Assembly: GCA_003213955.1 (NCBI GenBank)
Contig: QCMG01000013.1
Span: 1-41,291 of the forward strand
Length of the DNA stretch: 41,291 bases
Source: Prochlorococcus sp. AG-418-M08
GTDB taxonomy: Bacteria; Cyanobacteriota; Cyanobacteriia; PCC-6307; Cyanobiaceae
Direction: 5' to 3'
Position numbers and translations under genes: made by a program. Shown here in pieces: positions 3,437 to 30,217 of this stretch; positions within the stretch are counted from its first letter, which is position 1; each line of letters opens with the position of its first letter. A model generated the notes under the pieces. It worked only from the letters and a program-made list of their open reading frames with translations. It ran no database searches and was not told where the DNA came from.

Positions 3437-3670
3437 ATGTCTAAGTATTTTAAATTAACTGTATCGTCAATGACAATGCACGATTTATACATCAAAGCAC
3501 CTGATGATATAAGTGAAGATGATATTCATTCAAATTTTAGAAAATTTGATGGTGGTATGTTCACTACTGATGATGATGGAGATTGGGAATATTCCAGTAC
3601 TGAAGAAATAGATGAAGAAGATTTTAAAGAAGAAAGTTGTAAATGTAATTGGGAGGATAGATACCAATGA
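3437..3670 (+). CDS. Acidic small protein, possible DNA mimic or inhibitor
   Basis: A 77-residue protein with about 22 Asp/Glu against 8 Lys/Arg. The N-terminal strand-like part (MSKYFKLTVSSMTMHDLYIK) is followed by acidic runs around TTDDDGDWEY and EEIDEEDFKEE, and by a Cys pair in CKC. First of three consecutive acidic genes. Many phage counter-defence proteins (for example Ocr) are acidic DNA mimics, but the composition alone does not establish that role. Confidence 0.6.
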   Translation: MSKYFKLTVSSMTMHDLYIKAPDDISEDDIHSNFRKFDGGMFTTDDDGDWEYSSTEEIDEEDFKEESCKCNWEDRYQ

Positions 3671-3849
3671 CTAAAAAATATCATGTACTTATGTCTGAGA
3701 TACATTCAGTTTGGTACTTAGTTGAAGCTAAAAATGAAAAAGAAGCTATCAATAAAGTTTCTTGTGGAGATTACATTGAAGCTGAAGATGAAGGTTGCGA
3801 AATGGGTGGTCAAGATTTTTGTGAAATAGAGGAGTATGAAGATGATTAA
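3667..3849 (+). CDS. Acidic small protein with DpnD/PcfM-like pattern
   Basis: A 60-residue protein, about 17 acidic to 5 Lys. The pattern KKYHVLMSEI...WYLVEAKNEKEAINKV resembles small beta-alpha proteins of the DpnD/PcfM type, in which a strand ending in VEA is followed by a helix starting NEKEA. The C-terminal third is acidic with three cysteines. It has a good ribosome site (GGGAGG about 10 bases upstream) and ATGA overlap with the previous gene. Function unknown. Confidence 0.6.
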   Translation: MTKKYHVLMSEIHSVWYLVEAKNEKEAINKVSCGDYIEAEDEGCEMGGQDFCEIEEYEDD

Positions 3850-4150
3850 TAACCCATTACCAGATCAAGTTATGCAAGAAAATGATGAATATTATTTATC
3901 TGAACAATTTTATGAACATTGTAGAGATAAAGCTATAGAAATAGCTGTAAAATCTAATTTATTACCAGAATTGATTGATGATTTTATAGAATATTTTACT
4001 GATATTTGTTCTGAATCAGATGAAGGTTTTAGTTTGATAAATGATAAAAGTTTAATTGATGATTGGTGGGAAGAAAATTCAGATATGTATGAAAATCCAT
4101 CACCTTATGAAGATTATGAACCTACAGATTATGAAATAATGACTAATTAA
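3842..4150 (+). CDS. Strongly acidic protein, possible DNA mimic
   Basis: About 102 residues with roughly 28 Asp/Glu and about 4-5 Lys/Arg, net charge near -23. Mostly helical pattern with aromatic residues spaced among acidic ones (DDWWEEN, YEDYEPTDYE). ATG 3842 is preferred over ATG 3836 because GGAG at 3831-3834 is then at normal spacing (7 bases). It closes the rightward unit next to the opposing RHH gene at 4151. A role as an inhibitor of a DNA-binding host protein is an inference from charge and position only. Confidence 0.6.
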   Translation: MINNPLPDQVMQENDEYYLSEQFYEHCRDKAIEIAVKSNLLPELIDDFIEYFTDICSESDEGFSLINDKSLIDDWWEENSDMYENPSPYEDYEPTDYEIMTN

Positions 4151-4294
4151 TTATTTTTTAGTTTTATCTAAAAAATCATGTATAGCTTCTCTAATTAAAA
4201 AACCTATTGAAAGTCCTGCTTTTGATAGGTCTTTTAATTGTTCATATTCATCTTCATCAACAGAAACACTAATTCTTTTTAAATTTTTACTCAT
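4151..4294 (-). CDS. CopG-like ribbon-helix-helix repressor, 47 residues
   Basis: The minus strand encodes a 47-residue protein starting MSKNLKRISVSVDEDEYEQL and continuing with KDLSKAG, then SIGFLIREAIHDFL. This is the classic RHH layout: an N-terminal DNA-contacting strand (RISVSV), helix 1 (DEYEQLKDLSK), a short turn, and helix 2 (IGFLIREAIHDFL). RHH proteins of this size act as dimers and usually repress their own or adjacent promoters. It is transcribed away from the AT-rich control region at 4295-4588, so the TGACA inverted repeat there is a candidate operator. It is shorter than any other RHH protein in the window. Confidence 0.8.
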   Translation of the reverse strand: MSKNLKRISVSVDEDEYEQLKDLSKAGLSIGFLIREAIHDFLDKTKK

Positions 4295-4588
4295 AATTAA
4301 TAATATTTATATATCAATATACTATCAGATTGATGCCAAAACAATTATGAATGGAATTTTTTAAGAAAAAGAAAAGAACCAAAAGAAAAAGAATATAATT
4401 AAATAAATAAATATTATAAAAACTATATATGTATTAATTATATATATATATATATATATATTATATATTATATATTTAATAATAATAATGAATGGGTTTT
4501 TTCATATTTTAATTATACAGCATTAGTAACAACCTCTTGACACATATAATGTCATGCTACAATAATAAATAATAGTTAGTCTGTATGA
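4295..4588. other. AT-rich intergenic control region
   Basis: About 294 bases between the divergent genes at 4151 (minus) and 4589 (plus). It contains an uninterrupted TA-dinucleotide run (4441-4461 and beyond), A-rich tracts, and an ATGAA/TTCAT inverted pair near 4489-4504. The rightward promoter is at 4537-4563. The low melting stability would suit a regulatory or replication-initiation region, but I see no iterated protein-binding sites beyond the promoter palindrome. Confidence 0.6.
4537..4563 (+). promoter_or_regulatory. Promoter with TGACA...TGTCA operator
   Basis: Consensus -35 TTGACA (4537-4542), 15-base spacer, and an extended -10 TGC-TACAAT (4555-4563). An inverted repeat TGACA (4538-4542) / TGTCA (4550-4554) with 7 bases between covers the -35 box and spacer, a position that would block polymerase. 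Likely drives the recombination operon from 4589. Confidence 0.65.
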
Positions 4589-5116
4589 ATGGCAAAAACT
4601 AAAATTACAATGTTCTTAGATCCAGAGCTAATTGAATGGCTTGATCTGAACAGAGATGAAGAAACTTCTAGGTCTGCCTATCTTAGGATCTTGATTAGAA
4701 AAGATATGAAAAGTAAATCCAGAAGAAAAACTGCACCTGTAGCAACTACAAATGATAAGTTTAGTTCTCCTGTGATAACAGCAGATTTAATTCCTGATGA
4801 TTTAAAGGATTATGCTGATTTGTTAATTGAATGGTGGACTATAAGAAAGCAAAAAGGTGGATCATGCACTACAAGCGTTGCTAACCGCATCTTTAAAACT
4901 CTCAGGTCATTTCCATCACAAGACAGGAAAGAAGCTCTTGAGAAAGCAATTACAAGTGGCTGGAAAGACATCTACCCACTTAAGAAGGGTTACAAACCAG
5001 AAGAACCTAAAAATCATCCAAATCAGAAAGTATTCAAAGCTAGTGAAGTTGTACTTCCACCAACACTTGCTGAATTGAATGAAAATAATGCTAATAAGTT
5101 TATGGAGGACTTCTAA
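4589..5116 (+). CDS. RHH-domain protein with conserved C-terminal domain
   Basis: A 175-residue protein. Residues about 3-42 form an RHH domain (KITMFLDPELIEWLDL, then SRSAYLRILIRKDM). A Lys/Arg/Ser linker (43-60) leads to a C-terminal domain (about 70-150) with YADLLIEWWTIRKQKGGSCT and a helical stretch with SQDRKEALEKAITSGWKDIY. The C-terminal pattern resembles small domains that follow HTH or RHH modules in phage regulators and replication proteins; no specific name can be assigned. First gene of its operon, directly after a repressible promoter, so autoregulation is plausible. The stop overlaps the next ATG. Confidence 0.7.
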   Translation: MAKTKITMFLDPELIEWLDLNRDEETSRSAYLRILIRKDMKSKSRRKTAPVATTNDKFSSPVITADLIPDDLKDYADLLIEWWTIRKQKGGSCTTSVANRIFKTLRSFPSQDRKEALEKAITSGWKDIYPLKKGYKPEEPKNHPNQKVFKASEVVLPPTLAELNENNANKFMEDF

Positions 5117-5349
5117 TGGATAAGAATGAAAGACTTACTTGCACACCATATACAAAGCAAGATTATGAGATGGTGCAATTATTATCTGATTTATCAGGCA
5201 ATACTTTGTCCTCTGTTGTAGGTCAAGCATTACATGAATGGTTAAAAGATAATTTCACTAATGAAATTGAAAGACACCAAAAGGTAGAACACTTACTTAA
5301 TGAAACAGGCATACCAAACCATTTACATGATTTTGGAGGAGATCAATGA
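5116..5349 (+). CDS. Putative RHH-family protein
   Basis: A 77-residue protein. RLTCTPYTKQDYEMVQLLSD followed by TLSSVVGQALHEWL (about 30-43) fits strand, helix 1 and helix 2 of an RHH fold, though the strand is less typical than in the 4151 and 4589 proteins. A strong ribosome site (GGAGG) lies about 8 bases upstream. It shares TAATG with the upstream gene and overlaps the downstream one by ATGA. Possibly an accessory regulator of this operon. Confidence 0.6.
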   Translation: MDKNERLTCTPYTKQDYEMVQLLSDLSGNTLSSVVGQALHEWLKDNFTNEIERHQKVEHLLNETGIPNHLHDFGGDQ

Positions 5350-5540
5350 TTACTAACGGAGCAGGTACTACCGAAAGACAAAATGAATGGACAGTTTTCT
5401 CTGTAATGAATGATTATTTATCAGATGGTAAGTTATCAAGACGTAAAAGAGCATTTATGAAAATCAATTATCTACCTATGGTTAGAAAAGAACTTATAGA
5501 TTTTAATCAAGAATTATATAACTACTTAGGAGAAAAATAA
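5346..5540 (+). CDS. Hypothetical 64-residue protein
   Basis: Begins MITNGAGTTERQNEWTVF and ends in a helical segment. GGAGGAG lies just upstream of the start, and it overlaps both neighbours. No family recognised; position within the recombination operon suggests early expression. Confidence 0.6.
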   Translation: MITNGAGTTERQNEWTVFSVMNDYLSDGKLSRRKRAFMKINYLPMVRKELIDFNQELYNYLGEK

Positions 5541-5794
5541 TGCAAAAACTATTTGATATTTCTGTCATCAAAACTTTGAAAGATGGTATTACAAAAGGTA
5601 GATGGAGTCTTGAAGATTTAGATGAGCCACCCCCAGGTTGGAAAGAAGTAGTAAATAACTGCAAAGGCAACCCTGCTTTCCCTCAAGGTTATAAAGGTGT
5701 CAAATATCAGAATCTTGCTAGGGTTGAAGAACCCAAACCACCAGAGGAGAAAGTAGAACTTACCAATCCCAAAGACCTTCCACCAGATTTCTAA
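5540..5794 (+). CDS. Conserved small phage protein (LEDLDEPPPGW)
   Basis: An 84-residue protein: LFDISVIKTLKDGITKGRWS, then LEDLDEPPPGW at about 24-34 and PQGYKGVKYQNLAR, with a Pro/Glu-rich tail. I recognise this as a recurrent small hypothetical directly preceding RecB/Cas4-like nucleases in related phages. Function unknown; the conserved neighbour suggests a partner of the nuclease. Good AGGAG ribosome site and 1-base overlap with the gene downstream. Confidence 0.65.
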   Translation: MQKLFDISVIKTLKDGITKGRWSLEDLDEPPPGWKEVVNNCKGNPAFPQGYKGVKYQNLARVEEPKPPEEKVELTNPKDLPPDF

Positions 5795-6486
5795 TGAAAA
5801 CTATCGAATTATTGAAACCACTTCCTATCAACAGAGATGAGGAAACACATAAGTATCTCAATTTAGAGACAAACCAATGGTTATCTTATTCAACTACTGA
5901 AGTTTGTAATGAACTTACAGAAGAAGCCAAAGAAAATATTGAAGCCTACAGGTACATCTGGCAGCCGAGAGGAGAAACAGTACATGAATGTTTACAGGAG
6001 AAGATGCTTGGCAGTACAGAAATAGATCCAAAAGACTATGGAGAATGGGTTGAACCATTACTAAGCCATGAACTATTTACACATTTTGAACCAATGGCAG
6101 TTGAACTTATGATGTCAATACCTGATAAGTCAGTTGGAGGACAACTTGATTTACTTGGTTATGACACTAAGACTAAACAAGTTAGATTGATTGATTTAAA
6201 AACTAAAGGTAGTTCCAAATACGACATTAGGAAAAGAGGTAAAGATGGAATGATTCATTTGGAAGATATTGATATGTATTGGAAAGAACCTTATTTAACT
6301 GATAAACAATTAGGTTGTTACGTTGAGATGTTGAGATTAAATTACAACTTAGTACCAGATGTATGTAATACGATCTGGGCTTATGAAGGTAGATGTATCT
6401 TGAATAATGAGCAGCCTACTGAAAGATGTGAAGCTGCATGGCAAGAAGCATGGACTAAATTTGAAGCAAAACAGGAGTTATTTTAA
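5794..6486 (+). CDS. PD-(D/E)XK exonuclease, RecB/Cas4-like
   Basis: A 230-residue nuclease-like protein. Visible motifs in order: an early His (GETVHECLQ, H64), Asp in GGQLDLLG (D119), the D-x-K pair in LIDLKTK (D134, K136), and the Q-x-x-x-Y helix motif in DKQLGCYVEM (Q172, Y176). This is the standard metal-dependent active site of RecB-type and lambda Exo-type nucleases, which degrade DNA ends to expose single strands. With the ERF annealing protein at 7607 it probably forms a two-component recombination system. No iron-sulphur cysteine cluster of the Cas4/AddB type is apparent. Confidence 0.8.
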   Translation: MKTIELLKPLPINRDEETHKYLNLETNQWLSYSTTEVCNELTEEAKENIEAYRYIWQPRGETVHECLQEKMLGSTEIDPKDYGEWVEPLLSHELFTHFEPMAVELMMSIPDKSVGGQLDLLGYDTKTKQVRLIDLKTKGSSKYDIRKRGKDGMIHLEDIDMYWKEPYLTDKQLGCYVEMLRLNYNLVPDVCNTIWAYEGRCILNNEQPTERCEAAWQEAWTKFEAKQELF

Positions 6487-6765
6487 ATGCCACAATTTCC
6501 AAGTGATCCATACGAAGGTCAGGTCTTTTATGATCCTGATGCAAAAACAACTTATGAGTTCTGGATTCCAGCAGAAGATGATTATTTTTGTAAGAAGTTA
6601 GGTATTAAACCCAAATGGGTAGTAAAAAGTTATGAAAGTGAATGTGTTACTGCTTTATTTTCTAAAAATCCCAAGAATAAATACATGGCTTATAACAAGT
6701 TGATAGATCAGTTTGGTTATACCGAAGATCAGATTACAGACCTTATGGAAGAACTTAAGCAATGA
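6487..6765 (+). CDS. Hypothetical 92-residue protein
   Basis: Starts MPQFPSDPYEGQVFYDPDAK immediately after the nuclease stop. The opening, with P-x-x-G-Q-x-F, looks like a small beta-rich motif common to phage proteins of unknown function, followed by an acidic helical C-terminus (YTEDQITDLMEELKQ). Its stop overlaps the next ATG. It may work with the nuclease, but this rests on position alone. Confidence 0.6.
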   Translation: MPQFPSDPYEGQVFYDPDAKTTYEFWIPAEDDYFCKKLGIKPKWVVKSYESECVTALFSKNPKNKYMAYNKLIDQFGYTEDQITDLMEELKQ

Positions 6766-7606: not shown

Positions 7607-8302
7607 ATGACCACAGAAAAACCTAAGTCTTTAGCAGATGCTCTCAGGTTATTCCAACTTAAAGTCAAAGCTGCACCTAAAAGTGGCTTTACTAAATTTC
7701 CAAACCCAAGAGAGTACTCAAAGCTAGAAGATGTCTTACAGATTGTGCAATATGCACATGAACTTGGTATCTCTCATACTCAAACTGGTAAGTACATTAT
7801 TACTGAACAAGGGGATGTTATTGATTTATTAATAACAACTTTGCATTTTGGTAATGAAAAACTTGAAAGTGTTGATAGATTACCACCACTTCCTACTGGT
7901 AAAAACACTAGCCAAGAAGATGGCATTAGAAGAACGTATTTAAAAAAATATGCACTATCAGCTATTTATGGTATAGGTTCTGATGACGATGATGATGCTA
8001 ACTCATTAACACCTGCTCCAGAAAAAGAAAAAGGTACAAGATCAACACCGACCAAACCAAAACAGAAACTTGCTCCTGTATCTGAAAAAGCTAAGACTAA
8101 TCCTCCGATAACTACAGATGCTAGAAATGCTATTATGGATAGCCTTAAGAAATTAAATGCTTCTAATCCTGATAAGGCAAAAGAAATTGGAGAGGCTTTC
8201 AAGAAAGAATTTAATGTTCCTAAAGTTGTAGGCAACATTACTGAAGCTAGGCATGGAGAGTTCTTGGCTCTTGCTATCTCAAAAGTAGAGGAGAGTCTAT
8301 GA
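7607..8302 (+). CDS. erf: ERF-family single-strand annealing protein
   Basis: A 231-residue protein matching ERF annealing proteins. The N-terminal half contains the conserved region YSKLEDVLQIVQYAHELGIS and a central RRTYLKKYALSAIYGIG segment followed by an acidic SDDDDDAN stretch, the usual ERF arrangement (R...Y..KYAL...G...DDD). A Pro/Lys-rich linker (about 133-165) precedes a helical C-terminal domain. ERF proteins bind single-stranded DNA as rings and anneal complementary strands. It probably works with the exonuclease at 5794 and the SSB-like protein at 8511. It has its own promoter and no clear ribosome site. Confidence 0.82.
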   Translation: MTTEKPKSLADALRLFQLKVKAAPKSGFTKFPNPREYSKLEDVLQIVQYAHELGISHTQTGKYIITEQGDVIDLLITTLHFGNEKLESVDRLPPLPTGKNTSQEDGIRRTYLKKYALSAIYGIGSDDDDDANSLTPAPEKEKGTRSTPTKPKQKLAPVSEKAKTNPPITTDARNAIMDSLKKLNASNPDKAKEIGEAFKKEFNVPKVVGNITEARHGEFLALAISKVEESL

Positions 8303-13467: not shown

Positions 13468-13500
13468 TTTATATATGTTTTAAAATCGTAACAATGTTAC
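13468..13500 (-). promoter_or_regulatory. Possible leftward promoter with 13-bp palindrome
   Basis: A perfect inverted repeat GTAAC-AAT-GTTAC (13488-13500) covers a possible -35 (TTGTTA on the minus strand, 13494-13489). TATAAA (13473-13468) is a plausible -10, with a rather short 15-base spacer. The palindrome also covers the stop of the gene at 13497. It would control the ParB-like/RHH unit. Confidence 0.45.
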
Positions 13501-14129
13501 TTTTTCTTTTTTGTTAGCTTGGTAATTACTTGTTTTACGATAGGGCGGACAAGTTGAAGTACAAGCGGTGCAGAAGCACCAACCAAAGCAAGGCTAAAAA
13601 CCCCAACAAACTGTGGAGCAGACGGAATGAATTGTTCTTTCCACTCAACTGCTTCATAGAGAGTTATACATTCACTTCCATCTTGCCCTCTTTCATGCCC
13701 AATAACACGTTCTAACTTTTTATCGTTACGAAAATCTCCAACTCTCTGGTCATTTTTACCAGGACAGGGAGGAAAAGGTGGTGGAGGGTCTGGTGGTAAA
13801 TCAGGAATTTTTGGCTGTTCTGTTTCTGGTAAAGGAGGTGGTTCATTTTCTATAGGAACTTCCTCAGTTATTATTAAATTTTCTGGAGAATAATCAAGCG
13901 GTATAAAACTAGGAAACGGAAAATCACAGGTAGTATACACACCATTAGGATCTTCTAATAACAAATTACGATTACCAGTATTTTTTATATCTCTGTGTTG
14001 ATAAGTGCAACCAGGAACATCAATCTCAGGTGGTTTTGCTACTTGAATATAATGTGGACTATATATTTCTGGAACGTCTGGAATATAAATCTCAGGAATA
14101 CTTATCTCAGGTATCTCAATCGAAGGCAT
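13497..14129 (-). CDS. Proline-rich membrane-anchored phage protein
   Basis: A 210-residue protein. The N-terminus is repetitive (PSIEIPEISIPEIYIPDVPE), the centre is Pro-rich (PPLPETEQ...PDLPPDPPPPFPP), followed by a segment with Cys (PGKNDQRVGDF, GSECITLYEAVEWKE), a hydrophobic helix (about 172-195, FVGVFSLALVGASAPLVLQL) and a basic tail ending in a Lys run. I recognise this architecture from cyanophages, where it lies after the tail fibre genes; its role is unknown. The C-terminal anchor with a long extended N-terminal arm suggests a membrane or virion-associated protein. Confidence 0.65.
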   Translation of the reverse strand: MPSIEIPEISIPEIYIPDVPEIYSPHYIQVAKPPEIDVPGCTYQHRDIKNTGNRNLLLEDPNGVYTTCDFPFPSFIPLDYSPENLIITEEVPIENEPPPLPETEQPKIPDLPPDPPPPFPPCPGKNDQRVGDFRNDKKLERVIGHERGQDGSECITLYEAVEWKEQFIPSAPQFVGVFSLALVGASAPLVLQLVRPIVKQVITKLTKKKK

Positions 14130-14628: not shown

Positions 14629-14849
14629 CTTTTTGCTTTTTTAGCATCAGAAGGTTTGATCTCTTCTTTTTGATTTTCTGTTGATAATAATTGTGCCTGT
14701 GCATCTTTCACACCAATTATTGCACCTTGATACCTGTCCTCATTTTTACAGGCAATATCATAAGCATTTTTTGCTTCTTCTTTTTGTTTTTGTATCATTA
14801 CGAGTTGTTCCTCGTATTTTTTAATAAGTGCGTCTAGTGGATTTGTCAT
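14625..14849 (-). CDS. Coiled-coil protein, 74 residues
   Basis: Starts MTNPLDALIKKYEEQLVMIQ; continuous heptad-like helix through residue about 60, with a Lys/Ser-rich tail. Similar short coiled-coil proteins are seen after tail fibre genes in cyanophages, possibly fibre-associated or accessory. It overlaps the fibre gene upstream by ATGA and ends at the TTAA shared with the counter-oriented gene. Confidence 0.6.
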   Translation of the reverse strand: MTNPLDALIKKYEEQLVMIQKQKEEAKNAYDIACKNEDRYQGAIIGVKDAQAQLLSTENQKEEIKPSDAKKAKS

Positions 14850-15418
14850 GCTCCTACCTCTATCAAAAATATATAGCTAGTATTTCCAACACTATTATTC
14901 TTATTATAAAAAGCATATGTTGCATTACTCATTTTTGCATATTGACATTTATATGTATAAGTTGTTGATGCAGAAGTACCAGTATCATAAAAGTTCATAG
15001 TAGGTAGTAAAAATTTAGTATGTCTATGTCCACTTACATTACCTTCAAAAGCACCAAAAAAAGCTTCTCTTAATTGCGTTGAATCTCTTAGTAAATTAAA
15101 TTTTCCATAAGAGTTTTGTCCATTATCCGCTTCTGCTCCTAGAGCAAGATTTGTTATAACGAAAACCCCTGCATGAGAACTAGATGTTGTAATATTAGCT
15201 GTTAAACCTGTATCGGCATAAGTTCCTGATGTACTTTGAGCCTGAGTGTTATTGCTACCTTGAACAATTTGAAGAATTTTTCCACCACCAAAACCAGTTG
15301 CTGTTCCAGAGCAAGTTACATTTGCAGGGAATGTAGCGTTACCAGAATTATCAAGAGTAATGGCATCAGAAGAAGCTCCTGTATGCCTAATACTGTTTAC
15401 AATTAATCTACTGGTCAT
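14846..15418 (-). CDS. Short tail fibre, N-module A (copy 1)
   Basis: A 190-residue fibre-type protein. N-terminal module (about 1-45): TSRLIVNSIRHTGASSDAIT, a segment with SGNATFPANVTCSGTATGFG, nearly the same as that of the gene at 16903. After the GGGKILQIVQ hinge comes a beta-rich receptor-type domain containing YADTGLTANITTSS and a conserved ending YIFLIEVGA. The family resemblance to the neighbouring fibres suggests trimeric fibres attached by a shared N-terminus with exchangeable tips. Confidence 0.75.
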   Translation of the reverse strand: MTSRLIVNSIRHTGASSDAITLDNSGNATFPANVTCSGTATGFGGGKILQIVQGSNNTQAQSTSGTYADTGLTANITTSSSHAGVFVITNLALGAEADNGQNSYGKFNLLRDSTQLREAFFGAFEGNVSGHRHTKFLLPTMNFYDTGTSASTTYTYKCQYAKMSNATYAFYNKNNSVGNTSYIFLIEVGA

Positions 15419-16035
15419 GCTCCTATCTCCAAAAGTGTCATATAAGAAGCTGTACCATCATTACTTACACCAGTTAATGCACTATTGTTACCATAAGCTG
15501 CACCTATCATGGTTTTGTATGTGGTCGCAGAAGTTGTGCTTGGACTATCCAAGTATGTTGTATTAAACTCTCCTTGTATTTCTACATAAGTTGCTCCTGT
15601 AATATTTAAATGAATCTTATAAGGGTCAGACCCATTGATGTCATTTGTAAGTTTAGTAGAGCCTCTATACAAGGTAATTGACCCTCCTAAAGATGAACTT
15701 GATCTTCTTACTATATAATGTTGAGTAACAAAAACTAAAACTTTACTGCCTGTGGCTGAAGGTGTAATTGTTGCTGATAATCCAGAATCAGCAAAAGTAG
15801 TTCCATAAACAAATGTTGCTGAAGTACTGGATGCAGTAACAGCTTGAAGAACTTTACCGCCAGCTACACTTGCAAACGATAAATTTCCTGATCCATCACT
15901 AACAAGAGCTTGGTTGGCACTCCCATCGCTTTGAGGGAGCTTAAACTCAACTTCACTAGCTGATGGTGCAGAAGTTGGAACTGCTATTGAAACAGAATTA
16001 CCACCAGAATGTACTAATTTAATCTTTCCTGTCAT
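15415..16035 (-). CDS. Short tail fibre, N-module B (copy 1)
   Basis: A 206-residue protein. N-module (about 1-55): KIKLVHSGGNSVSIAVPTSA, FKLPQSDGSANQALVSDGSG. The same module begins the gene at 17496. The C-terminal domain is of the same class as in genes 14846 and 16032 (TFADSGLSATITPSATGSKV; YLDSPSTTSATTYK; ending LLEIGA). Likely virion surface fibre or tip protein. Overlaps both neighbours by ATGA. Confidence 0.75.
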   Translation of the reverse strand: MTGKIKLVHSGGNSVSIAVPTSAPSASEVEFKLPQSDGSANQALVSDGSGNLSFASVAGGKVLQAVTASSTSATFVYGTTFADSGLSATITPSATGSKVLVFVTQHYIVRRSSSSLGGSITLYRGSTKLTNDINGSDPYKIHLNITGATYVEIQGEFNTTYLDSPSTTSATTYKTMIGAAYGNNSALTGVSNDGTASYMTLLEIGA

Positions 16036-16607
16036 GCAGCTATCTCCATTAAAGTAAAAGTTGACGTAGATAAATAATCAGATGTCCTTGTTGAATAACT
16101 ACAATTGACGTAAGGATGAGATGCACCATTACTTTTTACTTGTAATTTATAAGTAGTAGCACTTGTGGTACTAGGAGAATCAAGATACATAAAAGAGCTA
16201 TGTTCACTACTGTCTCCTCCACTACCATTGTTATATATACGCATTGCACTATCTGAACTTGTTGGATTTCCTATTGCAGTTGAACCTCTTAATATCTGTG
16301 CATAAAGAGCATAATTATTTTTATTAAATACAAAATCCACCATAACTAAAACTTTGCTAGTAGTAGCTGAAGGTGTAATTGTTGCCGATAAACCAGTTAT
16401 GTCAGTATAACTTGTTCCAGTCACTTCTTGACCATCAGTTTTAGTTGATTGAATAACTTGAAGAATTTTACCACCAACACCACTTGCTAGTTTTGTGGCA
16501 GTAACAGCATTTGAGGCAAGCGTGTCCGCATCTACTGTTCCATCAGGTAAGCCGCCAACTGCAAGTCCTGTAATTACTCCTGTTTGTCCGTTGATTGATA
16601 CTGGCAT
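16032..16607 (-). CDS. Short tail fibre, N-module C (copy 1)
   Basis: A 191-residue protein. N-module (about 1-45): SINGQTGVITGLAVGGLPDG followed by DADTLASNAVTATKLASG, also found at 18541. The C-terminal domain matches 15415 and 14846 in class (ITGLSATITPSATTSKVLVM; MYLDSPSTTSATTYKLQV; ending TLMEIAA). The VTATKLA element is typical of trimeric fibre stalks in T4-like and cyanophage fibres. Confidence 0.75.
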   Translation of the reverse strand: MPVSINGQTGVITGLAVGGLPDGTVDADTLASNAVTATKLASGVGGKILQVIQSTKTDGQEVTGTSYTDITGLSATITPSATTSKVLVMVDFVFNKNNYALYAQILRGSTAIGNPTSSDSAMRIYNNGSGGDSSEHSSFMYLDSPSTTSATTYKLQVKSNGASHPYVNCSYSTRTSDYLSTSTFTLMEIAA

Positions 16608-16903
16608 TAGACTATAGTAAACACCGATCCAGAGGGTATAGTTAAAGTATAGGTCGCCATTGAGAATGGTCCAGCAGCTAAACCATTTTTATTATTACCG
16701 ATTGTAATATTCCCTGTTGCTGCTACAGGATTTTGAAATATACCATCAGTTTCTCCTCCAGCCGATATTGCATTTGTAGAGGCAGCAGTTATTCTTCCCT
16801 GGGCATCAACTGTAATAGCTGGTATTGCGGTAGCCGAACCATAACTCCCTGCACTAACAGAGGTATCAGCAAGTCCAGCAGCTTGAGCTTTAGTTAATCC
16901 CAT
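16607..16903 (-). CDS. Short fibre protein, N-module D, without a large tip domain
   Basis: A 98-residue protein. ATG 16903 is chosen over an upstream start at 16972 because it begins exactly at the preceding gene's stop (TAATG), and MGLTKAQAAGLADTSVSAGS is the usual start of such fibre modules. The body has the AIPAITVDAQGRITAASTNA repeat of T4-like fibres, then a short strand-rich tip ending TIPSGSVFTIV, similar to the C-terminus of the long fibre at 19158 (TIPSGSRYVIV). It lies between the two C-B-A sets. Confidence 0.7.
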   Translation of the reverse strand: MGLTKAQAAGLADTSVSAGSYGSATAIPAITVDAQGRITAASTNAISAGGETDGIFQNPVAATGNITIGNNKNGLAAGPFSMATYTLTIPSGSVFTIV

Positions 16904-17496
16904 TATCCTGAGTACTCCGTAAGTGTTAAGGTAGCGATTGTTGTATAGCTTGAATCTCGATGAACATAACACGCATTATTACCTGAGTAAATATATCTTC
17001 TACGAAATTCAACTGAATACGTTATTGCTGCTGTGCTGTTATAAGTTGTGTCCCACACATCAAATGTAACTGGATATTTCGCAATACCACTCCAATCTGA
17101 ATATTCCATAAGACCTAAAACAGTAGCTGTACCACCGATAGTTCTAGTAATTTGTAGTTGTGCTTCTATTCCTTTTCCTCCACTCGCACCATTGGTACTC
17201 AAAGAATCCATCCATACAACAAGATTTGCTGACGCTTTAATTTTGTTACTTGCTGAAGTCGGAGTAATAGCTTTAGTTAATCCTGTCGCTGCAAAAGTTG
17301 TACTTGTACTAGCTACTTGGGTTGGAGGAGATAATTGATGTACTTGAGTTTGAACAGCAACTCCACCACCAAATCCAGAAGCAGTACCAGAGCAAGTTAC
17401 GTTAGCAGGGAAAGTTGCATTTCCTGATCCATCTAAAGTAATCGCATCTGCTGAAGCAGAAGTGGATCGTATAGAGTTGGTTATAAGTCTGCTCAT
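16903..17496 (-). CDS. Short tail fibre, N-module A (copy 2)
   Basis: A 197-residue protein. N-module RLITNSIRSTSASADAITLD, close to that of 14846, including NATFPANVTCSG. The tip domain is a divergent member of the same class (TFAATGLTKAITPTSASNKI; ending TLTLTEYSG). This pairing of the same N-module with a different tip is evidence of module exchange or divergence after duplication. Confidence 0.75.
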   Translation of the reverse strand: MSRLITNSIRSTSASADAITLDGSGNATFPANVTCSGTASGFGGGVAVQTQVHQLSPPTQVASTSTTFAATGLTKAITPTSASNKIKASANLVVWMDSLSTNGASGGKGIEAQLQITRTIGGTATVLGLMEYSDWSGIAKYPVTFDVWDTTYNSTAAITYSVEFRRRYIYSGNNACYVHRDSSYTTIATLTLTEYSG

Positions 17497-18137
17497 TATG
17501 TGTCTCCTAATCTCATAAAAATAAATTGTGTTAAATAACCATCACCATATAAATAACTACTACCAGAAACTCCCGAAACAGTAAATTTTACTTTTACGTT
17601 ACTTGTATCTGTTACATCTATAAATGAAAAACTGGTTGCTTGGTTTGATTGTATTGTACCAGAACCAGAACCAGTGGCACCATTAGCAGCCCTCCCATGC
17701 TTAGTATAAGAACTATTATTAATAGTTACCATTGTATCGACAAAAACTGAATCAGCATTATGTATCTCAGCGTGAGCCTTACAAATTACTAACCATTTTC
17801 CTGTGTTTGGAAAAGAAAAAATACCGCTAGACTCGGTCATACCAGTACCAATTTGTGAAGCACCACCAGTAATATTATATCTTTCTAACTTGGCTGATTC
17901 TATGTCACCATTACCTTTAGTACTGAGCATATTCCAGATGTCAAATTCTGTAATTCCCGGAACTACAGTTGCGATAGTTGCAAAAGCTAAATTACCAGAT
18001 CCATCAGTTTTCATGTACTGACCAGCAGATCCATCAGATTGAGGAAGTTTAAAAGTTGTATCAGATGAAGGGTTGTTAGTTGGAGCAGATAATATAACTC
18101 CATTTCCACCACTATGTAATAACTTTATCTGACTCAT
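17496..18137 (-). CDS. Short tail fibre, N-module B (copy 2), C1q/TNF-like tip
   Basis: A 213-residue protein. N-module QIKLLHSGGNGVILSAPTNN and FKLPQSDGSAGQYMKTDGSG as in 15415. The tip is different: the segment SSGIFSFPNTGKWLVICKAH and the ending LYGDGYLTQFIFMRLGDT fit a C1q/TNF-like jelly-roll, in which an F-x-x-G-x-W/Y strand pattern is characteristic. Such domains form trimers and are common phage receptor-binding tips. Confidence 0.75.
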   Translation of the reverse strand: MSQIKLLHSGGNGVILSAPTNNPSSDTTFKLPQSDGSAGQYMKTDGSGNLAFATIATVVPGITEFDIWNMLSTKGNGDIESAKLERYNITGGASQIGTGMTESSGIFSFPNTGKWLVICKAHAEIHNADSVFVDTMVTINNSSYTKHGRAANGATGSGSGTIQSNQATSFSFIDVTDTSNVKVKFTVSGVSGSSYLYGDGYLTQFIFMRLGDT

Positions 18138-18139
18138 AT

Positions 18140-18499
18140 TTAACTAGGTTCTGTTGGGAAAGTAACAGATGACATACTTAATGTACCATCTGAATTTAAA
18201 GTTGGCGATGCACTAGCTGGTAAATCTCTTAATGCCTGACGATATGTTTTCCAATCATCTGCAAGTGTTAAATCAGAACTAGCTCTCCAATCGGTAGCAG
18301 CTAATTTTCTATTTCTTTCATCTCTTAAAAGTTTCATGGGTTCTGCATTATTTAACCTTGTAACTTCTGCATCTATCGCAGATTCAGTTGGTTTGGTAGA
18401 ACTGTCAACCCAATTTAAGCCAGAATAGTCTGTACCTGTCCAAGTCCATTCTGCACCTGGTTTTAAACTAATTAAAGCATCAATGTTCTTGTAAATCAT
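18140..18499 (-). CDS. Tail fibre/tail assembly chaperone-like protein
   Basis: A 119-residue protein. The C-terminal half carries LLRDERNRKLAATDWRASSD, then DDWKTYRQALRDLPA, the hallmark of the phage tail assembly chaperone domain I know as PF16778 (R-x-E-R-N...L..TDW...W..YRQALRDLP). The N-terminal part (AEWTWTGTDYSGLNW) is the usual preceding segment. Such genes usually sit beside fibre genes and help fibre assembly or attachment. Here it interrupts the fibre array between the copy-2 C and B genes. Confidence 0.8.
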   Translation of the reverse strand: MIYKNIDALISLKPGAEWTWTGTDYSGLNWVDSSTKPTESAIDAEVTRLNNAEPMKLLRDERNRKLAATDWRASSDLTLADDWKTYRQALRDLPASASPTLNSDGTLSMSSVTFPTEPS

Positions 18500-18540
18500 A
18501 ATTTTAAAACAGCTATACCATTATTATATATGTCATTAAT

Positions 18541-19146
18541 TTATGTGTCTCCCAACTTCATAAATAATATGCTTGTATAGTTTGAATCAGCATCATAAGA
18601 AAGGTAACTGCTAGTAGAATTACTTTCAGCATTAGTTCTAAGTTTTAATCTAAATGTACTTACATCAGTTACGTCTAGTATAACTGCACCCATACAACCA
18701 GATAAATGACCAGTACTACTGATTCTGCTTCCAACAGAAGAACTATTAGTACAACAATGATTCCAATTACTACCTGAGTCTGTACTTTGTTCTAGAAAAA
18801 ATTGATTATACCTTTCATCAACATTGTGTACGTTATACAAAATTACGTCAACTCGCCAATATCCTGTAGAAGAAAATGTAAAAATTCCAGAAGATTCACT
18901 GACATTTCCATTAAGACTTGCTCTTGAATTATTAGAAGGTCTATACCACCCAGTTACAGGGTTAGCATCGCCTCCATTAGATGAATTTAAAGCATATTGG
19001 TCCGCAACAGTTAAACCACCAAGACCAGAGGATTTAGCACTTGTAACCGCATTATTAGCCAACATATCAGTATCTACAATTCCATCAGGCAACCCTCCAG
19101 TAGTTATTCCTGATATAGTTCCATTTCCATTAATTACAATTGGCAT
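18541..19146 (-). CDS. Short tail fibre, N-module C (copy 2), C1q/TNF-like tip
   Basis: A 201-residue protein. N-module PIVINGNGTISGITTGGLPD and DTDMLANNAVTSAK, as in 16032. The tip is of the jelly-roll class of 17496 (SSGIFTFSSTGYWRVDVILY; ending TSILFMKLGDT), with four Cys. The shared ending FMxLGDT in 18541 and 17496 suggests one tip lineage joined to two different stalk modules. Confidence 0.75.
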   Translation of the reverse strand: MPIVINGNGTISGITTGGLPDGIVDTDMLANNAVTSAKSSGLGGLTVADQYALNSSNGGDANPVTGWYRPSNNSRASLNGNVSESSGIFTFSSTGYWRVDVILYNVHNVDERYNQFFLEQSTDSGSNWNHCCTNSSSVGSRISSTGHLSGCMGAVILDVTDVSTFRLKLRTNAESNSTSSYLSYDADSNYTSILFMKLGDT

Positions 19147-19157
19147 AATTTTACCTC

Positions 19158-21386
19158 CTAGACAATAACATAGCGTGAACCTGAGGGAATGGTAACTGTT
19201 ACCCCACTTGCTATTGTTATATCCCCTGCACTAACTCCTGACTTGTTTGTAGTCATAGTGTAATTATTTGAAATTGTTAGCGAGTTTTCTGTGATACAAC
19301 CATCAGCAACTTGTGATGAAACTCCTGTAAGACCAGATCCATCTCCTGCATAAGCTGTTGCTGTTAATGTGCCTGTAACAGTAGCTCCAGTATTTGAGGT
19401 TTCGAATTTTTTAGAGTTATTAAAAAATAACTCTACTGCTCCGTCATTATTAAAAATAGCAAAATTCTCATCACCAGCTTCCGATCTTATAGTGACATCG
19501 TTACCATCAAGGTATAAGCCACCTGTTGTATTTGCAATTCTAAAAAACCCAGTATTATTGAGTAAAAATGAGTTAGAACCACTATGATAAATCTCTAAAT
19601 CATTCCCTGCTCCAAATCTAATTTTTTGGTTATCAACAAGGTCAACATTCGTAGCCAGATCCGTTCCAACAATAGTTCCATCAACTATCTTTGCACTTGT
19701 TACTGTATTATCGCCTGGTGTACCAATCGCAATCGTAGCTCCCATATTAATAATGAAATATGTAGCACCACTAGGAGGAGCAGAATCAAAGATAATATCT
19801 GTACCGCTAACAACATAGCCCTCTGTCATGTCTCCTTGACCAGTTCCGTCATTTGGTTGTTGCATTACACCATTTATTGACACTCTTAATATTTCTGCAT
19901 TTGTTGGGGTTACTGCTGTGCTTGTTCCTTTAGTAACTAACTTAAATCTGTAAGCAGATCCGTTAAATGTTGCAGAACCACCCCCCGTTCCAGAAGATGA
20001 TGCAATATCTAATAAATCTGCTGTTCCTGTAGCTGCTGCACCACCAATCTCACCCCAAGCACTTCCGTCATATCCTTCAAATTCCGTTGTTTGACTATTG
20101 AATCTAAACATACCAGCAGAGGGAGAGCCTGGTCTTTGAGCAGTTGTACCAGAAGCAACATCAATAGCTCCTGTTCCTGTCATCAAAATATTGTCACTAA
20201 CAGTAAACGTGCCAGTAACGTCCATATTTCCAGTAACACTTAAACTGGATAGCAAAGTTCCTGTAGCTGTTGCAGAGTTTGTTGCTATTCCATTTCCCAT
20301 CAGGGAATGACTTGAGCATTGATAATGAATTACTATTGGTGTCGTATCGCCTACAACGATCTGTGTATATGCACCACTAGAACCAGCAGTTCCGTTTGTT
20401 GTTACGTTACTTGTATAAGCTGTAGTCTTATTAGACTCAAGATAAAAACGCAAAGGATGACCACTATTAGTATTATCTGATTGGTCAAACTTATAGGTAC
20501 GACCTGGTGTAAGAGTTAAAAATGGTGCTTCTTTACCATCAATTACATAGCCATTACTAGATCCACTTCCGTTATATCTATGTGCTGCTGTTTTAGTTGC
20601 TACTGTAACTGTAAAAGTTTTTACCGATCCAGTATAGGTAGCCTGAGTAGAAGCAAATCCTCTTATATTGCCATCATTACTGAGAGTTAATGTTCCTGTA
20701 AAACTAGGATCTGCATTTTGACCAGGTGCTACCCAACTAAGAACTCCAGAGCCATCACTAGATAAGACATATCCACTAACTCCTGTATCAGCAGAAGGTA
20801 AAGTCCAAACTACATTTGATGAAACTGTAGCTGGAGATTTAAAACCTACATAATGTGATGAATCAGAATCTAAATATCTAAATTCTTTTTGACCAGAAAC
20901 AGAAATATGCTCACTACTCGTCCATGAATCTGTGGCATTTACCCAGTTAAATGTCTTATCTGTAGCACCCTTAAGAGTTAATCCACCTCCATCAGCAGTT
21001 GTATCAGATGGTGTTGTAACTTTACCAAGAGTAATATTTTTATCTTCAACATCAAGATTGGTGGTGTTGATTGTAGTTGTCGTTCCGCCAACTGTTAAAT
21101 CTCCAACGATATTTACAAGACCAGCAGAATTGATTGTCATTCTGCCACTTCCACCTGTACTGAAGGTTAAGGTATCTGATCCTCCACTTATTCCTGTATT
21201 TGGATCGGAATTAAAACTAAATGATGGCAAGGAAGCAGATCCATCAGGTGCTTTACTTAATAAATTTGCGTATGTAATTTTATTGTTTGAACCTGTACCA
21301 CCACCACTAACATCAACGATAGGCAATATATCGGTGCTTGCTGGTGCGGTTAACGCTGTTAATTCTGATATTTTTTTATTTGTCAT
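19158..21386 (-). CDS. Long tail fibre protein
   Basis: A 742-residue structural protein. It begins TNKKISELTALTAPASTDIL, typical of fibre shaft proteins in cyanophages, then DPNTGISGGSDTLTFSTGGS and a repeated GDLTVGGTTTTINTTNLDVE block resembling T4-like shaft modules. Central parts hold a TGTADLLDIASSSGTGGGSA region and later NDLEIYHSGSNSFLLNNTGF, KKFETSNTGATVTGTLTATA. It ends with TIPSGSRYVIV. Alternating beta-strand and Gly/Ser/Thr composition fits a trimeric fibre. It lies immediately downstream of the collar gene. Confidence 0.8.
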   Translation of the reverse strand: MTNKKISELTALTAPASTDILPIVDVSGGGTGSNNKITYANLLSKAPDGSASLPSFSFNSDPNTGISGGSDTLTFSTGGSGRMTINSAGLVNIVGDLTVGGTTTTINTTNLDVEDKNITLGKVTTPSDTTADGGGLTLKGATDKTFNWVNATDSWTSSEHISVSGQKEFRYLDSDSSHYVGFKSPATVSSNVVWTLPSADTGVSGYVLSSDGSGVLSWVAPGQNADPSFTGTLTLSNDGNIRGFASTQATYTGSVKTFTVTVATKTAAHRYNGSGSSNGYVIDGKEAPFLTLTPGRTYKFDQSDNTNSGHPLRFYLESNKTTAYTSNVTTNGTAGSSGAYTQIVVGDTTPIVIHYQCSSHSLMGNGIATNSATATGTLLSSLSVTGNMDVTGTFTVSDNILMTGTGAIDVASGTTAQRPGSPSAGMFRFNSQTTEFEGYDGSAWGEIGGAAATGTADLLDIASSSGTGGGSATFNGSAYRFKLVTKGTSTAVTPTNAEILRVSINGVMQQPNDGTGQGDMTEGYVVSGTDIIFDSAPPSGATYFIINMGATIAIGTPGDNTVTSAKIVDGTIVGTDLATNVDLVDNQKIRFGAGNDLEIYHSGSNSFLLNNTGFFRIANTTGGLYLDGNDVTIRSEAGDENFAIFNNDGAVELFFNNSKKFETSNTGATVTGTLTATAYAGDGSGLTGVSSQVADGCITENSLTISNNYTMTTNKSGVSAGDITIASGVTVTIPSGSRYVIV

Positions 21387-27492: not shown

Positions 27493-27833
27493 TAAGGTTC
27501 AAATACTTGTTGGAACGTCATGTTTAAACTTGCTCTGTTTACAAAAGGTATTCTTTTTGTCCATTGAAGGCATATCCATTTATAAGCAACAGCACTACCA
27601 GGAGGTTGCCAATCAAAAGAAGCACCATCATCTGATCTCGCTTCAAGGAAGGTTTCTATCGTATCAGATTCGCTTTCGCTAACATCAAAAGTTAAAGACC
27701 AAACATAGGGTCTTGTATTCAATCCAAACTTAATTCTATGCTGGTAGCCATCATTAAATTGCGTGGCTCGTATTTGTGAAGATGTTGTTTTTTGAGCATT
27801 ATACGAAGGATTTATAGAAGGAAAAGTAGCCAT
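27492..27833 (-). CDS. Minor tail protein M-like
   Basis: A 113-residue protein with TFPSINPSYNAQKTTSSQIR, FNDGYQHRIKFGLNTRPYVW, and a GASFDWQPPGSAVAYKWICL end, the lambda M pattern (PF05939). M-like proteins form part of the tail tip. One-base overlaps with both the tape measure and L-like genes. Confidence 0.85.
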   Translation of the reverse strand: MATFPSINPSYNAQKTTSSQIRATQFNDGYQHRIKFGLNTRPYVWSLTFDVSESESDTIETFLEARSDDGASFDWQPPGSAVAYKWICLQWTKRIPFVNRASLNMTFQQVFEP

Positions 27834-30217
27834 TATCCTAGTAAACCTCCTGGTCTTTTCTGTTTAACTAATTCTGATTGTATAGCAACAGAAATTAATT
27901 GACCAAGTTCTCTACCCTGTTGTTCATCTCCTTCAACAGAAGAACCAGAAGCATCTACGTTTACTACGATATTTGTTGAACCGCCAAGCATTTCGTTAGG
28001 TGTAATCATTCCTGATACTCCTGGGCTAAACATTTCTGGACCACGTTCTCCAACAATATAACTACCTCCTGCCATTACAGGACCACCATTTGCTCTTACT
28101 CCAACTGTCCTATCAGTAAATCGACTTGGAGTTTTTACATCATATAAACTTTGTCCTTTTTTAACTCCATAAGGATTCGGTATAAATATATTGCTTAATA
28201 AACCCAGTAAACCTTGTTGTAACTGATTAGCCATCATTTTTGCAGCAGTATCTAAGAAATGATCTGCAATACGATTCAGCATATTTCTAAACGCATCTGA
28301 TACAGACATTGTTCCTTTTATAATTCCCTTAAATGACTCTTCAAATGAATTTGCCATTGTTTCTGATAACGTCATAACCATGTATATTGGATTTGCTAAT
28401 TTTTTCATTTCATCTTGTAAATCTTTTACTTTATCTTCAATAGCAGAAAAAGCTAAAGCTCCTGATTGTCCAAATTTGCCTTGAGCTTCATTAACAAGAC
28501 CAAGCATTTGTCTTATTTGTTCTAACGCTTCTTTAAAATCTTTCATTCTCTGATTTCTGCCTTCCTCAAATTCTTTTTGTAGTTTATTTGCTCTATTTTC
28601 TCCATATCTTGATGGATCGCCACCCCCTCTAAATAACAACTCTTCAGCAAGATCTCTAGCTCTATCTCTAAATTTTATTTGTTTTGCTTGAGCTACAGCA
28701 ATATCATTTTCTGCTTTTGCTCTAGCCTCTGCTAACGCTAATTCAATAGTTGCACTATCAGTAATTAAATTTTGATTTAATAATTGTGTAGCAACTTCAT
28801 TGCCTATTTTTGTTCTAGCTTCAAAAATTTGATTAGCTAATTGAGCCTGTCTATTTGCACTAGCTACACTATCAAAAGCTCCAGCATCAGCACCAAAAAT
28901 TTCTGTTAAAGATTTAGCAATACTTCCAGAACCAAATTGTGCAAAAGCTCCTAATACACCAAACGCTTCTTCTTTTGTTATTCTTAAGCGTTTTGCAACT
29001 GCGTCTATATCTTCTGAAGTAAGTTGAGCACTACCACCTACATCTGAAAAACGAACATTTAGAACAGCTAATGATTGATTAAATTTATCATTTTTATCAA
29101 TAGCAGAACCTATTGCAGTACCAAGAATAGATAATGCAAAACCAAATTGACCACCTATAGCTCCACCAGCAAGTCCACCAAGTCCACCACCAACTGCTGC
29201 TGCTCCTGTCTGTCCAAACAATAAAGGAAACGCACCACCAATAATTGCACTACTAGCTGTGCTTCCCAATCTTCTTCTTCTTGCAGTTCTAGCAGCTAAC
29301 GCTTCACTTTCAGCAAGTTTTCGTGTTGCTTGTGCTTCTTTAATTTTTAACCTTACATTGTCTCTACCTATCTTTCTTGATTGATTTCTTTGTTTAACTT
29401 GATCTTTTAAATTTTTAGCACTTCGTTTCTCCATTTTTTCTAAAGCTGCACTTAAATCTTTTCTCTCTTGCAGACCTTTATTTAATCTTTTTTCAATATT
29501 TACACTTTTATTTTTTGCTTTTATATCTCTTTCTGTCATTTCTGCTAATTTACTTGTTAAAGCAAATCTTTCTTTTATTATTCTTTCTGACCTGCCCTCA
29601 ATACTTACACTCTGACCAAATAAACTCCTTCCAGGCTCTATTGATGACCTCGGTGGTAGTGGAGATCTAGGAGGTAATGGAGAAGATAAAGCAATATCTG
29701 ATCTAGGAGGTAATCTTGAAAATAAATTAGAAGAAACTGCTTGTCCAGGTCCAATCGGACCGCTATAAGCAGTTGCACCTCTAATTGATCTACTAAAAGC
29801 AGCAAAAGAATTACCAGCAGCAGGATTTAATGGCTGTACTGGTCTGCGTTGTCTTAATTGCTGATTTCTTCTTATAGATTTTTCAGTAGGAGACATTTTA
29901 GTTCCTATTTTTAATAATTGATTACCTTTTTCTAACTCTTTATTTAATTGTTTTTGTGCAGCAACCAGTTCTTTTGCAGCTTTTTTTTGATTAGATGTAC
30001 CTATAGCAGCTTCATTAAAATTTTTTTTTGCTTCACTTACAGCTTTACTTAAACTATTAAAACTTCTAACTACTAAATCATTATTTTTACCTAATAACTT
30101 CATATTTATAGCTACTACCTTACTTATCTCTTCTGTCTCTTTTATTTTTTTATTAAATGCCTTTAACCTCTCCGCACCTTTTAAAGCAACAGCAATATCA
30201 ATATTATAATTAGCCAC
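27833..30217 (-). CDS. Tail tape measure protein
   Basis: A 794-residue protein. The N-terminal third is coiled-coil-rich and basic (NYNIDIAVALKGAERLKAFN). A hydrophobic Gly/Ala stretch (about 316-370) has GGALGGLAGGAIGG-type composition as in the membrane-inserting part of tape measures. Later helices are charged, and the C-terminus has GGPVMAGGSYIVGERGPEMF, diagnostic of tape measure C-termini. By the rule of about 0.15 nm per residue, a tail of about 120 nm is expected. The preceding tail chaperone overlap supports the call. Confidence 0.88.
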   Translation of the reverse strand: MANYNIDIAVALKGAERLKAFNKKIKETEEISKVVAINMKLLGKNNDLVVRSFNSLSKAVSEAKKNFNEAAIGTSNQKKAAKELVAAQKQLNKELEKGNQLLKIGTKMSPTEKSIRRNQQLRQRRPVQPLNPAAGNSFAAFSRSIRGATAYSGPIGPGQAVSSNLFSRLPPRSDIALSSPLPPRSPLPPRSSIEPGRSLFGQSVSIEGRSERIIKERFALTSKLAEMTERDIKAKNKSVNIEKRLNKGLQERKDLSAALEKMEKRSAKNLKDQVKQRNQSRKIGRDNVRLKIKEAQATRKLAESEALAARTARRRRLGSTASSAIIGGAFPLLFGQTGAAAVGGGLGGLAGGAIGGQFGFALSILGTAIGSAIDKNDKFNQSLAVLNVRFSDVGGSAQLTSEDIDAVAKRLRITKEEAFGVLGAFAQFGSGSIAKSLTEIFGADAGAFDSVASANRQAQLANQIFEARTKIGNEVATQLLNQNLITDSATIELALAEARAKAENDIAVAQAKQIKFRDRARDLAEELLFRGGGDPSRYGENRANKLQKEFEEGRNQRMKDFKEALEQIRQMLGLVNEAQGKFGQSGALAFSAIEDKVKDLQDEMKKLANPIYMVMTLSETMANSFEESFKGIIKGTMSVSDAFRNMLNRIADHFLDTAAKMMANQLQQGLLGLLSNIFIPNPYGVKKGQSLYDVKTPSRFTDRTVGVRANGGPVMAGGSYIVGERGPEMFSPGVSGMITPNEMLGGSTNIVVNVDASGSSVEGDEQQGRELGQLISVAIQSELVKQKRPGGLLG

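Follow-up and report, generated by a model that had tools for sequence, protein, structure and literature searches.

The window analysed here is contig QCMG01000013.1 (41,291 nt), and the system in question is an array of short tail fibre genes on its minus strand. Eight genes were found between positions 14846 and 19146, in transcription order C1, X, B1, A1, D2, C2, B2 and A2. The products of the C, B and A genes begin with a short N-terminal stretch of about 35-55 residues that is specific for the position (the anchor) and is joined at a nearly fixed point to a head (the tip). The junctions in the array are overlaps of 1-4 nt or a 2-nt gap, except for that between C1 and X, which are 41 nt apart. 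Hidden Markov models (HMMs) were built for the A, B and C anchors, the D domain, the tip classes i and q, X and the downstream gene P; with these models, the layout of the window reads D-Cq-X-Bq-Ai-D-Ci-Bi-Ai-P. The corresponding features are, in transcription order:

19158..21386, minus strand: long tail fibre of 742 residues, the last ~50 of which are the D1 domain (D HMM; phrog tail fibre matches)
18541..19146, minus strand: C1, C anchor with a q-class tip, C1q/TNF-like with an LGDT end (HMMs, AlphaFold2 model)
18140..18499, minus strand: X, tail fibre assembly chaperone, Phage_tail_APC (Pfam PF16778, E 2.5e-12; phrog_4912, E 8.6e-13)
17496..18137, minus strand: B1, B anchor of unit-1 type with a q-class tip (HMMs)
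16903..17496, minus strand: A1, A anchor of unit-1 type with a divergent i-class tip (HMMs)
16607..16903, minus strand: D2, stand-alone D protein of 98 residues, start ATG at 16903 (D HMM)
16032..16607, minus strand: C2, C anchor of unit-2 type with an i-class tip (HMMs)
15415..16035, minus strand: B2, B anchor of unit-2 type with an i-class tip (AlphaFold2 model, HMMs)
14846..15418, minus strand: A2, A anchor of unit-2 type with an i-class tip (HMMs)
13497..14129, minus strand: P, proline-rich protein downstream of arrays (phrog_570, function unknown, E 6.6e-39)

A previous examination of these letters (the sequence-only reading) had described seven modules in the order C, B, A, D, C, B, A. 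That order was confirmed on the minus strand by open reading frames (ORFs) and HMMs, but the content had to be extended by an eighth gene, X, between C1 and B1, whose product clears the curated cut-off of Phage_tail_APC (46.9 vs. 26.6 bits). The "up to seven distinct short fibres" proposed at that time are reduced to six head-bearing fibres plus the 98-residue D2, in which no head domain was recognised. As the D sequence also ends the preceding 742-residue fibre, the repeated unit is the four-part D-C-B-A, of which the window has two copies. Across 23 double arrays, the median identity was 92% for D1 and 81% for D2, and 38% between D1 and D2.

The two C-B-A sets are paralogous, as had been proposed: when the anchors of first and second sets of the same contig were compared, mean identities were 58, 50 and 58% for C, B and A (n = 19, 15 and 13, respectively); in the window, the anchor regions of A1 and A2 are 75% identical over 109 nt of DNA. 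The unit-2 type A anchor of A2 was also found in L012, L014 and L030 (L-numbers denote contigs of the comparison set described below). The assignment of the A1 tip as a divergent member of the class present in C2, B2 and A2 was likewise supported, since an HMM seeded with the A1 tip converged on 247 ORFs versus 251 for this ITPS class (i). The next recognised unit after A was P in 33 cases, D in 26, C in 20 and another in 4; gp42 of phage P-SSP7 and gene 24 of SS120-1 resemble P by eye only.

The D-C-B-A order in marine phages

The comparison set was obtained by searches with C1, B1, B2, A1 and A2 plus the loci of six named phages, and consists of mutually related contigs enriched for these genes. 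In all, 177 sequences were merged into 145 contigs, and layouts are given for the 129 with at least three units; many contigs are truncated, so some "single" arrays may be cut doubles. The C1 search contributed 80 of 240 confirmed stretches, and a search of genome contigs with C2 found no relative. The anchor HMMs separate the three types, seven ORFs matching two of them; for the order count, proteins without a C HMM match but with a C-like start motif were scored as C.

The first fibre after D was C in 149 of 154 D-headed segments (B in 3, none in 2), and 109 of the 113 segments with all three anchors started with C-B-A (C-B-B in 3, C-A-B in 1), compared to one-sixth expected under random order. 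The order is thus beyond chance, the contigs being related and the nominal p not to be taken literally. A second set was picked from viral contigs solely for having the 17-nt 5' border sequence of i tips (see below), yielding at least 116 loci, of which 98 shared no 150-mer with the first set and 93 remained after removal of duplicates. Among the matches listed for these 93 contigs, all 35 complete segments were C-B-A. Weighing against a strict rule, the 88 D-headed segments among these same matches had C first in 55, a tip on an unrecognised N-terminus in 25, B in 6 and nothing in 2. Nor are B-like and C-like stretches exclusive to short fibres: long fibres that bear D contained them too, B in 64 ORFs and C in 25.

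When virion type was judged from the similarity of flanking genes alone, the 145 contigs comprised near siphoviruses with 19 double, 9 single and 1 partial array, far siphoviruses with 17 single arrays, T7-like podoviruses with 39 single arrays and no double, and unassigned contigs with 6 double, 36 single and 18 partial arrays or none. The D-C-B-A order therefore seems to be common to siphoviruses like that of the window and to T7-like cyanopodoviruses, and the layout is apparently present in marine viruses of at least two body types.

Some arrays had additional elements. L162, with weak matches to P-SSP7, has two D-headed sets, and L283 (556-13875) combines a normal D-C-B-A block with i tips on SELRV/SEIRV-type N-termini and a pair of X genes, and has three D domains. 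X is inserted at varying places among the arrays. A small gene similar to P-SSP7 gp40 (L001, 7778-8068) accompanies most of them: of the 101 contigs that had D, A and a unit in the C position, 59 had only the gp40-like gene, 28 had both this gene and X, 4 had X only and 10 had neither. The gp40-like protein may be an alternative chaperone.

Exchange of tips between anchors

Every anchor type was found with i, q and other tips. In a comparison of 109 arrays thinned to 89, the median pairwise identity was 42% for D, 66% for C, 48% for B and 47% for A anchors, versus 25-27% for the tips, and the correlation of D with the anchors (0.21-0.45) was higher than with the tips (0.06-0.11), which fits D and the anchors forming one structural set. 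Separate phylogenies of anchors and tips gave largely incongruent trees: the anchor letter changed 84 times on the tree of 213 i tips (85-108 in 200 shuffles) and 21 times on that of 88 q tips (24-33 in shuffles), as if tips retained a weak memory of their anchor, rather than none.

Comparison with relatives revealed near-identical tips on unrelated anchors. Among 100 tip pairs at least 90% identical from different contigs, 17 sat on different anchor letters (the pairs being non-independent); for instance, the tips of an A gene of L146 and a B gene of L148 are 97.7% identical on anchors of 25% identity. Ten pairs were aligned as DNA, nine exchanged and one control. In the nine exchanged pairs, the match started at most 42 nt from the HMM-defined anchor end; six i-tip exchanges stopped within 10 nt of the gene end, whereas two q-tip exchanges and the pair of B2 with L177 continued into the next gene. 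The control pair, C1 and L177, matched throughout on both sides.

Three tips of the window, C1, B1 and B2, have relatives of at least 88% in the set, whereas the best for A1, C2 and A2 were 35, 44 and 51%. In L177, the B2 tip (99%) follows a B1-type anchor and precedes an A1-type anchor, making a chimeric B gene, and the B1 tip (93%) sits on a B2-type anchor in L014. The C1 tip is 99% identical to that of L177, the C1 gene region being 96% identical at the DNA level. L177 lacks unit 2, with other genes in place (3260-5357), including a 66-residue protein starting with MGLT like D2, a 169-residue protein and a glycine-rich protein of 346 residues. Upstream of P, L177 also has two genes (5584-6589; 186 and 152 residues) that by eye only resemble iron-dependent oxygenases, a pair not present there in the window.

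Several observations limit the freedom of this exchange. Tip class is clustered on the anchor trees, with 27 changes versus 57-75 in shuffles for C, 36 versus 41-52 for B, where clustering is least, and 15 versus 34-47 for A. Moreover, there is some correlation between the tips and the anchors of A genes (r 0.42), and 83 of the 100 near-identical pairs keep their anchor letter, partly by common descent. Despite this, exchange of tips between anchors and phages is strongly supported by the trees, by near-identical tips on unrelated anchors and by breakpoints near the joint, in agreement with the sequence-only reading. As in modular receptor-binding proteins, the N-terminus is conserved, the C-terminus varies and recombination lies at the joint; presence in the virion and host binding are predicted.

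DNA borders of the tip cassettes

The consensus DNA of i tips starts with GGTAAAATTCTTCAAGT and ends with ATGGAGGTAGCAGCATGA, in which the TGA overlaps the next ATG. In the window, the 5' border was located in the three i tips of the second unit:

16456..16472, minus strand: 5' border of the C2 tip, exact match to the 17 nt
15842..15858, minus strand: 5' border of the B2 tip, two mismatches
15267..15283, minus strand: 5' border of the A2 tip, two mismatches

This 17-nt border is conserved at synonymous sites. Codon bias was assayed on 170 i tips less than 80% alike, 80 of which had the exact joint motif and 111 the end motif: the departure from background was 0.1-0.9 bits for border codons of the joint and 0.5-1.2 bits for those of the end, compared to 0.01-0.31 bits for the codons of the internal ITPS, LDSP and TTYK motifs. 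Among the matches listed for the 93 new contigs, 112 of 114 occurrences of the border were in frame within a gene recognised as carrying an i tip, the N-terminus being B in 48, C in 25, A in 15 and another in 24. Only 5 of 182 loci matched a border-pair pattern whose spacing was restricted to a limited range. In the q tips, no comparable 5' border was found at the sole motif tested, ADQ[WY] (n = 19-20), where the Ala codon alone was biased (0.52 bits); three serine codons of internal q motifs were also biased (0.35-0.59 bits).

At the 3' end, the terminal Glu codon of i tips is GAG in 156 of 162 cases (332/1812 elsewhere), and the Gly codon of the LGDT end of q tips is GGA in 59 of 60 (3523/9402 elsewhere). 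Among i tips, 156 of 175 had a Shine-Dalgarno core ahead of the next ATG, as had 66 of 80 q tips, versus 599 of 7960 random windows. The next gene's ribosome-binding site accounts for the 3' signal, and the 5' border would most simply be a recombination joint. As i and q cassettes bring along, in their 3' ends, the Shine-Dalgarno sequence of the gene that follows, the downstream fibre should still be translated after a swap. Two findings weigh against this interpretation: heads of other classes (o) carry the core in only 35 of 72 cases, and tips without a coupled next ATG still have it (21/26 i, 6/7 q and 13/38 other). The latter would agree with heads keeping the signal wherever they landed, without proving it.

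Predicted fold of the tips

AlphaFold2 monomer models were obtained for one protein of each main tip class, B2 for i and C1 for q, from alignments of at most 45 relatives. The B2 model had a predicted local distance difference test score (pLDDT) of 81.7, and its residues 64-206 matched the TNF-like lectins PLTL (Z 13.7; root-mean-square deviation 2.1 over 127 residues) and BC2L-C (Z 13.2). In all, 161 chains reached Z 8, other viral jelly rolls scoring about 8.6, whereas Foldseek alone placed Pgp3 first (E 4.0e-6) with a low TMq of 0.41. For the C1 model (pLDDT 81.0), the matches rest on Foldseek, the VIA realignment covering B2 only: the best match in the Protein Data Bank was 3qbq_A, from a RANK-RANKL complex (E 3.2e-7, TMt 0.75), and C1ql1 was also matched (E 7.4e-6).

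For the two tip classes proposed by the sequence-only reading, a different kind of fold for each was unsupported, as both models are TNF/C1q-like jelly rolls. Pfam detected no family at E 0.01 or better in B2 or C1, and nothing better than E 0.08 in the six tip-bearing proteins; in the C/q alignment, one of 46 members matched TNF (E 1.9e-4) and one BclA_C, and neither was found among the 46 of the B/i alignment. The tips therefore show, in these models, a likeness to the TNF/C1q fold and not Pfam membership.

Proposed assembly and alternatives

Taken together, we favour, with a probability of roughly 0.68, a host-recognition array of two D-C-B-A units in which position-specific adaptors bear exchangeable, probably trimeric, lectin-like heads. 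Known relatives of TNF/C1q-like folds form trimers, and each of the C, B and A products would form a homotrimer, with D acting as a dock for the three fibres. Heads have been exchanged both among positions and among phages, the transferred DNA extending from close to the joint to roughly the stop codon. The six head-bearing genes lie side by side with position-specific N-termini, through which we infer that the fibres assemble, leaving the heads to bind receptors. From such an assembly it would follow that the phage displays up to six lectin-like heads at once and that its host range changes by cassette swapping, perhaps with help of its own Erf-like annealing protein. A point to be weighed against the scheme is that the anchors are poorly resolved in both models, that of C1 with a pLDDT of 53-59 in the monomer.

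A more elaborate version, in which D is a hub with ordered docking sites, the anchors are addresses and the heads are communal cartridges, each equipped with an entry border in its DNA and with the start signal for the gene that follows, would make the array a socket-and-plug system common to different marine phages, with two hubs and six slots in siphoviruses like that of the window. We regard this version as tentative, somewhat short of even odds.

The fixed order could also be inherited rather than required, the tips being exchanged by homologous recombination between the anchor DNA of adjacent genes and the fibres binding the tail independently, with no docking hierarchy. Most genes of the window abut or overlap by 1-4 nt, so that each tip is flanked by two conserved anchors, and recombination in these anchors would preserve the order without selection; the varying places of the X genes and the continuation of the exchanged stretch into the next gene in three of nine cases also fit. 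However, tips jump as well between anchor letters whose anchors share little, the block is common to podo- and siphoviruses with different tails, and the anchors of units 1 and 2 are mostly distinct, which suggests separate docking places. An order merely inherited is thus rather unlikely, although it deserves serious consideration.

C1q is built from A, B and C chains, and by analogy C, B and A might form one mixed heterotrimeric fibre instead of three homotrimers, as would befit three chains that come in fixed order, usually once per unit, and have folds known to trimerise in their relatives. Single arrays, however, mix unrelated tip classes (for instance Cq-Bi-Ao in L069 and L108) and tips swap singly, heads of different class being unlikely to trimerise together, which makes a heterotrimer improbable.

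Age of the doubling

The proposal of a cassette duplication followed by tip exchange was right in kind also for the duplication, except that the duplicated unit is D-C-B-A and the event was not recent here. In 23 double arrays, the nearest neighbour in another contig came from the same unit in 44/46 cases for D, 39/40 for C, 36/39 for B and 36/37 for A. First and second anchors of the same contig were no closer than those of different contigs (58.2 vs. 57.6% identity for C, 50.3 vs. 51.9% for B and 57.9 vs. 57.2% for A), and the unit label changed only 5, 5 and 3 times on the C, B and A anchor trees, compared to shuffle means of 15.5, 16.1 and 11.8. With genes of these 23 contigs clustering by unit, and first and second anchors no more alike within a contig than between contigs, the doubling is old; the genes keep their unit identity, and a few anchors have crossed units. 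The B anchors fit this less well: those of unit 2 are, by median, equally distant from each other and from those of unit 1 (48 and 48%), and B anchors of unit-1 type were found in unit 2 or in a single array of unit-2 type (L030, L164). A recent tandem duplication of C-B-A in place, followed by local replacement of tips, would account for paralogous anchors within one genome, but it was rejected by the anchor comparisons within and between contigs, by the grouping by unit and by D belonging to the unit, and is hardly credible.

The phage contig and its putative host

The contig reads as a siphovirus: it holds a terminase, a portal, a major head protein, a 1083-residue lambda J-like central fibre and a long protein (27833-30217) with several partial matches annotated as tape measure proteins. 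It also encodes an Erf-like single-strand annealing protein (7607-8302; phrog_2324, E 7.6e-17), which may drive tip exchange; short or imperfect homology is tolerated by annealing proteins of the Erf type. In the window, no terminal repeat was found among direct repeats of at least 40 nt, and no tRNA was found. The contig corresponds to IMG/VR 2716884409_000001 and is contig 13 of a nearly complete 1.66-Mb assembly, in which PsaA and PsaB were found. Provided that the phage belongs with this assembly, the host is a cyanobacterium and, judging by size and by relatives, most likely Prochlorococcus; the presence of the contig in the assembly may reflect infection of the sampled cell, co-binning or a prophage.

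Relation to known systems

The closest described likeness is to P-SSP7, a T7-like podovirus of Prochlorococcus, in which gp36 ends in D, gp37, gp38 and gp39 have C, B and A anchors with i tips, and gp37/gp38 and gp38/gp39 overlap, although with a single unit and on a different virion. Its record labels gp36-39 and gp41 as tail fiber proteins, and SS120-1 also shows D-C-B-A. In the available portions of the literature, gp36-38 of P-SSP7 are not named in PMC5345008, the distal fibres are unresolved in the structure of its relative P-SCSP1u (PMC10575957), and a description of gp37-39 was found in neither.

The following comparisons are likewise with available parts of the sources. The branched complexes of CBA120 and RaK2/phiK64-1 (PMC10253068) also have several receptor-binding proteins per phage, with N-terminal assembly, C-terminal host recognition and domain swapping, but their branches are polysaccharide-degrading tailspikes, in CBA120 with docking domains similar to T4 gp10, whereas the array of the window has short anchors, lectin-like heads and the D-C-B-A order. 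In the metaviromic islands of marine phages, genes for tail fibres, C1q-like, XkdW and carbohydrate-binding proteins are among the most frequent identifiable ones in variable regions; that work treats genes and read coverage, and anchors, a fixed order or tip cassettes are not described in the part available (PMC3909814). The fibre gp24 of cyanophage Pam3 has a TNF-like domain and a dedicated chaperone, gp25, but is a single fibre that starts with a helical bundle at the N-terminus and has a tip rich in glycine, for which the text available describes no array (PMC9608196). Similarly, the Alteromonas phages A5 and V22, which are morphologically distinct, share a module of fibre plus chaperone, yet as a single module without an ordered multi-fibre array (PMC10579305).

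Fibres of modular build with exchanged heads are well known, and variable regions of marine phages that contain C1q and fibre genes had already been described (PMC3909814). What appears to be new, within the literature searched, is the ordered D-C-B-A anchor code in podo- and siphoviruses, its old doubling and the head cassettes that move between slots carrying the start signal of the next gene. Neither the order nor the tip cassette was found described in that literature, mostly without subscription papers, which is weak evidence of novelty.

These results provide a testable anatomy of the variable recognition region in a set of marine phages, with its fixed parts, its swapped parts, its breakpoints and a reason why downstream fibres could stay translated. 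One prediction is that P-SSP7, which infects Prochlorococcus MED4, bears three docked lectin-like fibres, gp37-39. As heads and slots are readable from sequence alone, environmental data could link the head repertoires of these phages to the receptors of their hosts.

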